A DNA stretch of 64,000 nucleotides from Flavobacteriales bacterium (lineage in GTDB: Bacteria; Bacteroidota; Bacteroidia; Flavobacteriales; CAJXXR01). The stretch lies in the NCBI GenBank assembly GCA_025210805.1, contig JAOAQX010000028.1, positions 62,001-126,000 on the forward strand. Direction: 5' to 3'. The position numbers were made by a program, and so were the translations under genes. The notes beneath the pieces are model-generated. The model was not told where the DNA came from and made no database searches. It worked only from the letters and a program-made list of their open reading frames with translations. Below, piece by piece: positions 23,723 through 30,229 of the stretch (positions are counted from its first letter, which is position 1; each line of letters starts with the position of its first letter).

Positions 23723-25054
23723 TTACTCTTTCACTAACTTAGTGTTCTTAAGTGTTCCATCCTGTAGAGTAGAATGAATAAAATAGATGCCTTTAGGCAA
23801 GCGTTGAATATCAATTTCATTTTTAGAAGAAATCAAAAGGATACGCCCAGCTTCATCACTAATGGTAGATTCTTTTAGTTGATCTTGTTCAATATTTAAG
23901 AGGATGCGGTCTTTGGCAGGATTTGGGCTTACCCAAAAAGTATGAGCGTCAAGTTCTGTTAATCCGATATGAGAATCAAAAGATTTAATACTTCCATTTT
24001 TTTGACTAAAGACCAATTTTGTTGCTCCTCCTCCAGATACAAGTGCCGCACCTTCAAGTCCGTTTATTCCATCGCAAATAAGTTCCTTGTTATAGTTGTT
24101 TGTTCCATCCAAGAAATAGATTGCATCATCTGTAAGGGTTAGAATACCGGCTTTTCCTTTGTAGGTTACTTTATCAAAAACACTGGTAAGTTTAGTAAGT
24201 CCTGTAGTAATGGTCTGAGGATAATAGAAGGTTCCAGATCCCGAAGTATTTATTTTATAATATTGAAGTTTTCCGCTTCCTGTGATCTCCAAAAGATTGA
24301 GTTTAGAGTCTCCATTGGCATCTACTAATTCTGTTCTGGCAAAATTACTTACGGCTGAGGCAATTGTTTTTTCGGCACCAAAAGTTTTATTTCCGAGGTT
24401 TTCGAACCACAAATCAGAATAACCTGAAATAGCCACATCAGGGTATCCATTACCAGAAATATCTCCAACAGCTAAATCATTAAGGAGATTATAAGTGCCT
24501 TGGGTGACAAGTGCGCTAGATAAATTTGTTCCTGTGTTAAAAACGGCAAGAGCACGGTAAGCAAAAGAAGACATCAATTTGCTTTCAGACCCAATAACGA
24601 AACCATCGTATCCATCTTTATCAAAATCGGCGATGGCAATAGAAGTAAATTTCTGAGAAGTAGGTGCATTTAGCAGTTCTTTGAATTCTATTGAGGTTTG
24701 AGATCCTGTTCCAGTATAAAACATATAGTATAAGAGGGATGAAGTCCCGAAAAGAATTTCTTCTTTTCCATCATTGTTGAAGTCTATTTTTTCTATGATC
24801 TCAATTTTTGCTCCCCCAACAAGCCTTTCTGCGTTTGAAAAACCTGATGGACTATTTTTCATCCAACTAAGGTGAAATCCTAAAGAATCTAGAAGTACAA
24901 TGTCTTCGTATCCATCACCGTTGAAATCAGCGGAGATAATATGTTTGTTATTGTCGAGGTTGTTTTGTAATGTACTGGTATTACAGTTTTGAGATTTTCC
25001 TTCTTGAATAGGAAATAATAAAAACACGAAAAGTGATAAAATAATTTGTTTCAT
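23723..25054 (-). CDS. FG-GAP/VCBS repeat protein with T9SS sorting domain
   Basis: The 443-residue protein has a signal peptide (ends GKSQNC) and a series of FG-GAP/VCBS-like blades with Asp-rich loops (DFNGDGYEDIVLL, DFNNDGKEEILFG, DFDKDGYDGFVIG, DISGNGYPDVAISG, DANGDSKLNLLEI). These predict a calcium-binding beta-propeller. The last ~75 residues (VSPNPAKDRILLNI ... GIYFIHS ... KLVKE) are a type A sorting domain, so the protein is expected to leave the cell through type IX secretion. A possible promoter (TAACTTTG, 25088-25081) precedes it. The ligand is unknown. Confidence 0.88.
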   Translation of the reverse strand: MKQIILSLFVFLLFPIQEGKSQNCNTSTLQNNLDNNKHIISADFNGDGYEDIVLLDSLGFHLSWMKNSPSGFSNAERLVGGAKIEIIEKIDFNNDGKEEILFGTSSLLYYMFYTGTGSQTSIEFKELLNAPTSQKFTSIAIADFDKDGYDGFVIGSESKLMSSFAYRALAVFNTGTNLSSALVTQGTYNLLNDLAVGDISGNGYPDVAISGYSDLWFENLGNKTFGAEKTIASAVSNFARTELVDANGDSKLNLLEITGSGKLQYYKINTSGSGTFYYPQTITTGLTKLTSVFDKVTYKGKAGILTLTDDAIYFLDGTNNYNKELICDGINGLEGAALVSGGGATKLVFSQKNGSIKSFDSHIGLTELDAHTFWVSPNPAKDRILLNIEQDQLKESTISDEAGRILLISSKNEIDIQRLPKGIYFIHSTLQDGTLKNTKLVKE

Positions 25055-27569: not shown

Positions 27570-28598
27570 ATGAAATTTTTGTTTTCAAAGTCACTTTCAC
27601 TTTTTGTACTTTCTTTTCTGCTCCTTACGGCAAAGGCACAAGAGACAAGTTTGGAAATCAAAAAGAAAGAAAATCCACATATAGAATCTTTTAGAGATAA
27701 GCTGATTCTAAGAATGGCATTACAACAAGGTTTTGATGCACTTGAAGTGGAAACGCAAGATGAAAAATTGGAATTTAAGTCCAATGAAAATTTGCGATTA
27801 CGTTTCACCGTTCAGCATGATTTTTTAGCAATTACGGTAGGTTTTGCTCCCGACTATTTACCATTTAATAACGATGATTTAGAAAAAGGAGAATCCTCAA
27901 CTTTTAACTTTGGGTTGAATGTATTTGCAAATCGATTTTTTGGACGCATCCAACTGGATAATGTTACAGGTTTTTATCAGTCTAACCACAATGCTGAGAA
28001 TCCAAACATAATAGAATCTTATACTATTTTTAAGGACCTTAAAAAAACACATCTTCATGCGGAGCTGGCGTATAGTTTTAATCCGAAATTTTCAAACAGA
28101 TCTTATATCATGTTTAATGAACGACAGAAAAAAACTATGGGATCTTGGTTGTTGAGAGCGTATTTTATTCGTTCACGATATGAGAATGTAGTAGATGAAG
28201 ATTATAAGCTTAGACTTAGAAATCAATTTTCTTTGCTCGGTAGTTATGTGCATAATCATGTTTTTAATGAAAAATTCAATCTTTTAGTAGGTTTAGGTTT
28301 TGGAGCAGGAGTTTCCAAGGTTGAAAATAGATTTGATGATCATTCTTTATCAGAGCGGCTAAGATACCCTGTATTTCAAAGTAATTTTATCGCCCAGTTT
28401 GGTTACCACTCAGAATATTTTTTTTCAGGAATTGCATTAACGGCTTTGAGTAATGCCGATATAGACCCTAAAAAAGATTATGCCTTTAATGATGTCCAGT
28501 TGGAATCTAATATTTACTTTGGATACCGATTAAAAGCACCAAAATTTATTAGTAATACCTTTAAAAAATTCGGATCCCTACTGAAGAGTAAATCCTAG
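27570..28598 (+). CDS. Outer-membrane-like protein, possibly DUF4421
   Basis: The 342-residue product has a signal peptide (MKFLFSKSLSLFVLSFLLLTAKAQ) and many alternating strands with aromatic residues (LRFTVQHDFLAITVGFAPDY, FNLLVGLGFGAGVS, FIAQFGYHSEYFFSGIAL). The pattern recalls DUF4421 proteins of Bacteroidota, but I cannot confirm this. It is divergent from maf and is probably transcribed alone. Confidence 0.75.
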   Translation: MKFLFSKSLSLFVLSFLLLTAKAQETSLEIKKKENPHIESFRDKLILRMALQQGFDALEVETQDEKLEFKSNENLRLRFTVQHDFLAITVGFAPDYLPFNNDDLEKGESSTFNFGLNVFANRFFGRIQLDNVTGFYQSNHNAENPNIIESYTIFKDLKKTHLHAELAYSFNPKFSNRSYIMFNERQKKTMGSWLLRAYFIRSRYENVVDEDYKLRLRNQFSLLGSYVHNHVFNEKFNLLVGLGFGAGVSKVENRFDDHSLSERLRYPVFQSNFIAQFGYHSEYFFSGIALTALSNADIDPKKDYAFNDVQLESNIYFGYRLKAPKFISNTFKKFGSLLKSKS

Positions 28599-28665: not shown

Positions 28666-29388
28666 ATGCCTAAAAAACTCCCCATAAATAAATGCCACTT
28701 GAATCTTTCGGACATGGAAATCGACCAAGAACGAATCCATTGTGGAGGTTGTAATAAGAACCTTGTAGATTTTAGAGGAAAGTCGGTTGAGGAAACCATC
28801 GAAATTCTAAAAAAATCCCAAAACCAAGTTTGTGGAGTTTATCATAAAAAAGATATAGTGGTAAAAAGCTATGTATTTCCTAAGTTTTCATTTACTAAAA
28901 GATTTGTGGCGGCTGCTTTATTGGCTTTAGGCTTGTTTCCCACTTGGGCGGAGGCGCAGTTGGTGGAAAAAGATTCTACGGCACAGTATCAGATTACTCA
29001 AAGTTCTAATACAAAGAATGATATTGTTGTTATTACAGGGAGTGTAAAAGATAGTACAGCCGAAGTGCTTTATGGAGCCAATGTTGTCTTGTTTAAAGGT
29101 GAAGACATAATCAAAGGCACCGCTACGGATATAAATGGTTCTTTTAGGCTTGAGCTTCCCAAAAAAGAATTAGGAAAGGAAATTAGGGTAGAAGTGTCTT
29201 TTATTAGTTTTGAAACCAAAAAAATTGAACTAAAATTAAAAGCGACTAATAATATTTCTGTAGAGCTTGTCGAAGGTTTTCTAGGAGAACCCGTAATAGT
29301 AGGCTTAAAGGATTGGACAGATCAAAAAAACTTTGACAAAATGTGGAGTGGGAGAATTTTCACAAGAGAAGAATTAAACAGAGAATAA
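28666..29388 (+). CDS. Four-cysteine module + membrane segment + carboxypeptidase-regulatory-like domain (paralogue 1)
   Basis: The 240-residue protein has no N-terminal signal. Residues 1-60 hold C10, C26, C29 and C56 in the pattern KCH..M..ERIHCGGCNKNLVDF..VCGVY, a likely metal-binding module. Many Bacteroidota proteins have a similar beginning (CH.NW..M...FC..C.K.V.DF). Residues 79-98 form one membrane segment or internal signal (VAAALLALGLFPTWAEAQL). The rest looks like a CarboxypepD_reg-type beta-sandwich (GSVKDSTAEVLYGANVVLFK, ATDINGSFRLELP). It ends KMWSGRIFTREE. The next gene starts 1 base after its stop and repeats its first part. Confidence 0.8.
   Translation: MPKKLPINKCHLNLSDMEIDQERIHCGGCNKNLVDFRGKSVEETIEILKKSQNQVCGVYHKKDIVVKSYVFPKFSFTKRFVAAALLALGLFPTWAEAQLVEKDSTAQYQITQSSNTKNDIVVITGSVKDSTAEVLYGANVVLFKGEDIIKGTATDINGSFRLELPKKELGKEIRVEVSFISFETKKIELKLKATNNISVELVEGFLGEPVIVGLKDWTDQKNFDKMWSGRIFTREELNRE
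28703..28796. repeat. 94-base exact duplicate (copy 1) in paralogue 1
   Basis: The bases 28703-28796 are identical to 29424-29517. A second exact block, 28908-28955 (48 bases), matches 29629-29676. The DNA between the blocks and after them has diverged, which points to recent duplication or gene conversion limited to the 5-prime third. Confidence 0.92.
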
Positions 29389-29389
29389 T

Positions 29390-30229
29390 ATGAAAAAACT
29401 CCCCATAAACAAATGCCATTTACATCTTTCGGACATGGAAATCGACCAAGAACGAATCCATTGTGGAGGTTGTAATAAGAACCTTGTAGATTTTAGAGGA
29501 AAGTCGGTTGAGGAAACTGTGGAGATTATTGCACAATCTGGCAATGATATATGTGGAGTTTATGACGAGCACAAAACAGAAGCAAAAGCATATATTTTCC
29601 CCAAGTTTTCATTTACCAAAAGATTTGCGGCGGCTGCTTTATTGGCTTTAGGCTTGTTTCCCACTTGGGCGGAGGCTCAGTTAAATAAACACCAGCACAA
29701 CCAAGTAGAATACGTATCTGTAAAAGAAAATGATAAAGAAGTATTCAAGATTAAGGGAAAAGTCAAGAATTTGTTGAATGGTAACGTAATAAAGAGCGCA
29801 GTGGTGAAGATAATCTTCAAAAAAGAATTGATTATTAAAACTTATACAGATGCTTATGGGGAGTTTGAACTTGATTTACCCTTTACAAGAAGAGAAGAAT
29901 TATTATTAGAAATAGAAGCCGAGCAAGGATTGGCTATTTTGAATTTCCCTTTGTACCTAGAAAAAAAGACTTTTGTTCTTAATGTATTTCTCGCATCCAA
30001 CAAATTGGGTGAGGTGATCATATTAGAAGATGCCAGCGACTTTCCTATAACAGATATCGTAGGAAAAGTTCCTTTGCATAATTCTCGAACGAAAAAAGAT
30101 ATAAACAAGAACAAAAGGAGAAATCTTTCAGCTACTTGCGGAAGACCTAGTAGGGATCCCATTGACGATTATTATGACAAAATGTGGAGCGGAAGAACCT
30201 ACACAAGAAAAGAGAACAATTGGTTTTAG
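29390..30229 (+). CDS. Four-cysteine module + membrane segment + carboxypeptidase-regulatory-like domain (paralogue 2)
   Basis: The 279-residue paralogue has the same layout as the gene before it: four cysteines, the membrane segment AAAALLALGLFPTWAEAQL, and a beta-sandwich-like domain (IKGKVKNLLNGNVIKSAVVK, DAYGEFELDLP). It ends with the shared KMWSGRTYTRK. The first ~95 residues are almost identical to paralogue 1, with exact DNA identity over 94 and 48 bases, while the external domain is much changed. An extra basic stretch (TKKDINKNKRRN) and two cysteine-proline-like turns lie before the end. Function unknown. Confidence 0.8.
   Translation: MKKLPINKCHLHLSDMEIDQERIHCGGCNKNLVDFRGKSVEETVEIIAQSGNDICGVYDEHKTEAKAYIFPKFSFTKRFAAAALLALGLFPTWAEAQLNKHQHNQVEYVSVKENDKEVFKIKGKVKNLLNGNVIKSAVVKIIFKKELIIKTYTDAYGEFELDLPFTRREELLLEIEAEQGLAILNFPLYLEKKTFVLNVFLASNKLGEVIILEDASDFPITDIVGKVPLHNSRTKKDINKNKRRNLSATCGRPSRDPIDDYYDKMWSGRTYTRKENNWF
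29424..29517. repeat. 94-base exact duplicate (copy 2) in paralogue 2
   Basis: Identical to 28703-28796, distance 721 bases, same orientation. Confidence 0.92.

Follow-up and report, generated by a model that had tools for sequence, protein, structure and literature searches.

A tandem gene pair from a Flavobacteriales genome points to a portable leader with a four-cysteine domain ahead of a predicted Sec signal peptide in Bacteroidota

How can two neighbouring genes stay almost identical over their first third while the domains behind that part have drifted far apart? The question is raised by a gene pair in a 64,000-nucleotide stretch from a Flavobacteriales bacterium (contig JAOAQX010000028.1, positions 62,001 to 126,000 of the forward strand; hereafter the window), where gene A (28666-29388, 240 amino acids) and gene B (29390-30229, 279 amino acids) lie head to tail, with one base between the stop of A and the start of B. 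The preliminary description of this locus proposed a membrane-anchored receptor or display family, in which gene conversion keeps a cysteine-bearing inner module constant and the outer domain varies. We find that A and B form a genuine mosaic pair and belong to a widespread family of leaders, of which no prior description was found; the ideas of conversion and of a cysteine module hold, while that of an anchored receptor most likely does not. The pair is flanked by a DUF4421 gene and a tyrosine-recombinase-like gene, the former (27570-28598, + strand) being the directly upstream neighbour, 67 bases from the start of A. The same genome carries a third member of the four-cysteine family, unlinked to A and B.

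The leader of A (residues 1-97; 28666-28956, + strand) comprises a module with cysteines C10, C26, C29 and C56, a linker and a signal peptide with a predicted cut between AEA and Q; that of B (residues 1-96; 29390-29677, + strand) has the same architecture and is 81% identical to it. The first 97 or so codons align without gaps past residue 2, and an ungapped block of 290 bases (28672-28961 against 29393-29682) is 85% identical. Within it lie the exact blocks reported initially, one of 94 bases (28703-28796 in A, 29424-29517 in B, + strand), probably a recent conversion tract, and one of 48 bases (28908-28955 in A, 29629-29676 in B, + strand) that ends at the predicted cleavage site. When the overall identity was kept and the positions were shuffled 20,000 times, an exact run of 94 bases was never reached. 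Identity falls off at the AEAQ site, and a comparison of synonymous divergence on its two sides bears out the strong drift claimed for the outer domain: identical residues share the same codon at 68/79 positions in the leader and 17/44 in the cargo (Fisher p=1e-7), against a fraction of about 0.47 expected from local codon usage. Synonymous sites of the cargo are therefore at chance level, that is, saturated, which excludes a recent duplication of the whole gene. Along the leader, same-codon stretches are uneven (29/30 for residues 13-44, 13/19 for 45-79 and 16/17 for 80-98), so that the homogenised part is patchy, as short conversion tracts would give, and it ends at the AEAQ site.

For the window lineage, no close relative was found in the collections, and conversion in A and B is for this reason read from the exact blocks; relatives that carry tandem arrays of the family allow a wider comparison. 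Leader identity exceeded cargo identity in all 17 arrays (p=1.5e-5), with same-codon fractions of up to 0.94 in leaders and about 0.5 in cargo. Between orthologues from one genus of relatives the pattern is reversed: cargo DNA is 91-93% identical (same codon 0.87-0.94), whereas leaders are 76-84% identical and, in three of four close pairs, have same-codon fractions of 0.64-0.68 and are saturated at synonymous sites. Among paralogues within single genomes, identity reaches 96% in the leader with 53% in the cargo. The nearest neighbour is a same-genome paralogue for 10 of 29 genes when judged by leader and for 0 of 29 when judged by cargo. Near-identical cargoes behind diverged leaders show that leaders have been replaced independently of the cargo, and exchange of leaders between paralogues is demonstrated by the orthologue comparison in this one genus. 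The proposed mosaic evolution, whether through gene conversion or through exchange of leaders, is supported. Arrays in genomes G019 (L133) and G124 (L134) hold both intact copies and broken ones, the latter with stops or short frames, which is consistent with ongoing duplication and loss.

Strong purifying selection on the leader next to a fast-diverging cargo could also be imagined to produce this contrast with no conversion at all, given that the leader is conserved in unlinked relatives too and that its identity exceeds that of the cargo everywhere. We judge this highly improbable, since the exact blocks of the window are identical at synonymous sites next to a saturated cargo, and since orthologous leaders are saturated where their cargoes are not, which selection at the protein level cannot produce.

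What is being kept uniform begins with the four-cysteine module, a motif noted from the outset, in which all four cysteines proved invariant in alignments of 130 full-length and 120 module sequences. The invariant cysteines are compatible with metal coordination, and the module probably binds zinc. An AF2 model of moderate confidence (76-88 within the full-length model, about 61 for the module alone) places strands at residues 18-20, 23-26, 31-35 and 55-58 and a helix at 41-50. No covering family for the leader was found in Pfam, NCBIfam or PDB, where the module had no convincing match; a fold search with the module model returned no match, and literature searches turned up no account of a four-cysteine leader. 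A known zinc family was rejected for the module, with only scattered sub-threshold Pfam matches and no fold match, as were HMG boxes, whose PDB matches to the module profile were taken as chance.

With a profile built from 13 relatives, family members were detected in 78/296 genomes of the order, about a quarter, and in 53/394 sampled genomes of the phylum. Named carriers, retrieved with a single Chryseobacterium-type protein as query, include Chryseobacterium, Flavobacterium, Tenacibaculum, Taibaiella and Soonwooa species, and the family also occurs on Aureibacter and Hymenobacter plasmids. Two metagenome-assembled contigs labelled Limnohabitans and Williamsia (L071 and L077) bear this family, which is otherwise found in Bacteroidota, and probably reflect binning contamination. 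A mobile or phage origin was considered and rejected: phage records held no relative of the family, no viral contig carried the leader of the window, and the sole PHROG match was weak.

In the preliminary description, this module has no signal and a single membrane segment comes after it. The hydrophobic segment is present, but it resembles a signal peptide that begins about 75 residues into the protein. Both A and B show a basic n-region, a hydrophobic core and a site with Q following KRFVAAALLALGLFPTWAEA, as in Sec signal peptides; in A the predicted peptide spans about residues 76-97 (FTKRFVAAALLALGLFPTWAEA; 28891-28956, + strand), on the evidence of cleavage-site statistics and hydrophobicity. 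Mature proteins are predicted to start at Q98 in A and Q97 in B, with full-length products of 27-31 kDa. Across the family, where leaders run to about 100 residues (79-119), consensus patterns rather than a trained predictor called an AxAQ-type site (91) or a lipobox cysteine (49) right after the segment in 140 of 153 members (92%), leaving few without a clear site. The same site pattern followed 34/581 internal hydrophobic segments and 135/236 N-terminal ones in other open reading frames of the same loci. Median hydrophobicity of the segment is 1.62, compared with 1.64 for ordinary signal peptides and 1.97 for internal membrane segments, a set chosen to be at least 1.6.

Two further observations are evidence for a signal peptide independent of the site pattern. 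In some members the cargo bears a sorting domain for type IX secretion (TIGR04183, best 6e-11), and such domains act once the signal peptide is removed. In addition, one of four array paralogues in a genome of the same family (G001; L121:2192-2800) has no four-cysteine module and opens with a signal-peptide-like start, METRRKIYRSLVLGLFVLFFQC, while its cargo is homologous (E=1e-13) and its tail the same; this paralogue lost, or never had, exactly the four-cysteine part. In the window itself, an FG-GAP-type protein (23723-25054, - strand) ends in what, read by eye, resembles a type A sorting domain of type IX secretion (VSPNPAKDRI...), a hint that the organism possesses this secretion system.

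These results bear on whether the proteins might instead be uncleaved single-pass sensors, with a cytoplasmic metal module, one membrane helix and a periplasmic receptor domain. The signal-anchor rule would indeed place the module in the cytoplasm, and CarboxypepD_reg, Plug and TonB_C cargoes are reminiscent of portions of proteins that serve in envelope signalling and transport. Against such an arrangement, and equally against the anchored receptor or display family first proposed, stand the cleavage-site statistics, the signal-peptide-like hydrophobicity, the members with lipoboxes or type IX tails, and the module-less paralogue, and we regard uncleaved sensors as unlikely. Because of the site statistics, the hydrophobicity, the type IX domains and the module-less paralogue, leader and cargo probably separate after export. 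The constant part is thus most likely a leader of about 97 residues in which a cytoplasmic four-cysteine domain precedes a cleavable Sec signal peptide.

The predicted mature cargo of A (28957-29388, + strand) contains a transthyretin-like CarboxypepD_reg domain of the SusC-NTE type (residues 123-201) and ends in the tail KMWSGRIFTREELNRE. The carboxypeptidase-regulatory sandwich suggested for the outer domain is recovered here by PF13715 (CarbopepD_reg_2) at E=2.7e-10 and 40.6 bits, above the gathering cut-off of 32.2, and by PDB matches to the SusC NTEs 9hfj and 6ytc. Membership in SusC/RagA itself fails, TIGR04056 giving 45.7 bits of the required 368 over the first 90 or so profile positions only. 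The predicted mature cargo of B (29678-30229, + strand), with an insert and the tail KMWSGRTYTRKENNWF, scores 15.8 bits against PF13715, below the cut-off, and is a diverged relative by alignment to A. That outer domains are interchangeable is substantiated by the variety of cargoes behind the family leader; among 130 members we counted 60 with CarbopepD_reg_2, 21 with TonB_C, 18 with Plug and 6 with a type IX sorting tail. In a sorting by simple pattern classes, the prevailing site is that of signal peptidase I for Plug cargoes and a lipobox for TonB_C cargoes, few of which the pattern picked up. Some members have only short cargoes of 29-60 residues; in four loci (L013, L033, L036 and L043) the leader is followed by a cargo of about 60 residues that resembles a lipoprotein and contains no recognisable domain; in these proteins the leader may be the chief functional element.

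The C-terminal KMWSGR motif, described initially as common to both genes, is indeed repeated (KMWSGR..TR; 29334-29372 in A, + strand, 85% identical to 30175-30213 in B). It is not a specific second frozen module, being one form of a basic aromatic C-terminus common across the family (e.g. FFGRIFHSIGNLFR); a strict tail pattern occurs in 13/144 members compared with 0.7 expected in shuffles.

Taking this evidence together, it is likely that A and B encode precursors of exported envelope proteins with an unusually long composite leader that is portable between cargoes and whose module may control or mark export. Residues 1 to about 66 would form a small four-cysteine domain that stays in the cytoplasm, and the conventional Sec signal peptide behind it would target the precursor to Sec, after which a signal peptidase I cut would free a periplasmic SusC-NTE-like domain with its basic aromatic tail. 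The leader would act as a portable cassette, homogenised or swapped by gene conversion in tandem arrays where cargoes remain distinct, and the exact blocks in A and B would be traces of recent conversion. Through a cytoplasmic partner or by slowing processing, the four-cysteine domain may mark or control the export of TonB-system-like accessory domains. Module conservation, predicted cleavage sites, cargo classes and leader exchange are well supported at the level of sequence; from the same features we infer that the leader is actually cleaved in A and B, and analogy with other secretion leaders suggests a regulatory role of the module in export.

It is possible, though we hold it to be doubtful, that one gene provides two working proteins once signal peptidase has split the precursor: an exported TonB- or SusC-type domain, and a cytoplasmic four-cysteine protein, either stable or released by RseP, that reports on export or envelope state, with conversion keeping this reporter uniform across an array of different cargoes. 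The topology of a cytoplasmic cysteine domain, a membrane segment and a periplasmic domain is also that of zinc-containing anti-sigma factors, the module in that case binding an ECF sigma factor. Such a role seems very improbable, given that the 25 commonest Pfam families among 103 neighbouring genes include no sigma factor and that neither Pfam nor NCBIfam matches the module to a zinc anti-sigma domain. A survey of neighbourhoods found no conserved operon partner of the family, the only recurring neighbour being a deaminase-family gene, mainly beside family genes of one genus.

In Bacteroidota, the evidence points to a hitherto undescribed type of long secretion leader. If this is true, many Bacteroidota proteins annotated as 'hypothetical', 'carboxypeptidase-like regulatory' or 'energy transducer TonB' have been mis-drawn as anchored and would be precursors with a cleaved, cysteine-bearing leader. 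Three tandem 'energy transducer TonB' genes lie on the Aureibacter tunicatorum plasmid pAT1 (L237, 45911-48223), the third of which matches the four-cysteine leader family; this annotation could mislead, should the supposed anchor prove to be a leader that is cleaved. The family would also offer a clean natural case in which recombination swaps an export leader among different cargoes, one boundary of the exchange lying close to the signal-peptidase site. Should one gene indeed provide two proteins, there would be a phylum-wide class of regulatory leaders, overlooked because signal peptides are sought at the extreme N-terminus.

Several known systems resemble parts of this arrangement. The extended signal peptide of type V secretion (ESPR; FhaB, EspP) is likewise an N-terminal extension before a Sec signal peptide, conserved across different passengers, and is reported to slow export and delay cleavage (PMC5422565). 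The four-cysteine leader differs in its extension of about 70 residues with an invariant four-cysteine motif and a predicted fold, in its small TonB/SusC-type or type IX cargoes and in its phylum, Bacteroidota; membership in ESPR fails, there being no ESPR Pfam match and the cargo classes differing from type V passengers. In Gram-positive bacteria, YSIRK/GXXS signal peptides have a leader motif common to different surface proteins that decides precursor handling (PMC12004944), although we saw no sequence relation to them and they are without a cysteine domain. The NTE of SusC/RagA (PF13715; Bt1763 NTE), whose function in SusC is unknown (PMC7782687), matches the cargo of A by sequence and fold, whereas that cargo is free-standing, without plug or barrel, behind a four-cysteine leader. 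Finally, the known substrates of RseP include remnant signal peptides and small membrane proteins in this size range (PMC10470546); once cleaved, the leader would fall into that size class, as a small membrane protein with its N-terminus inside and about 97 residues in length.
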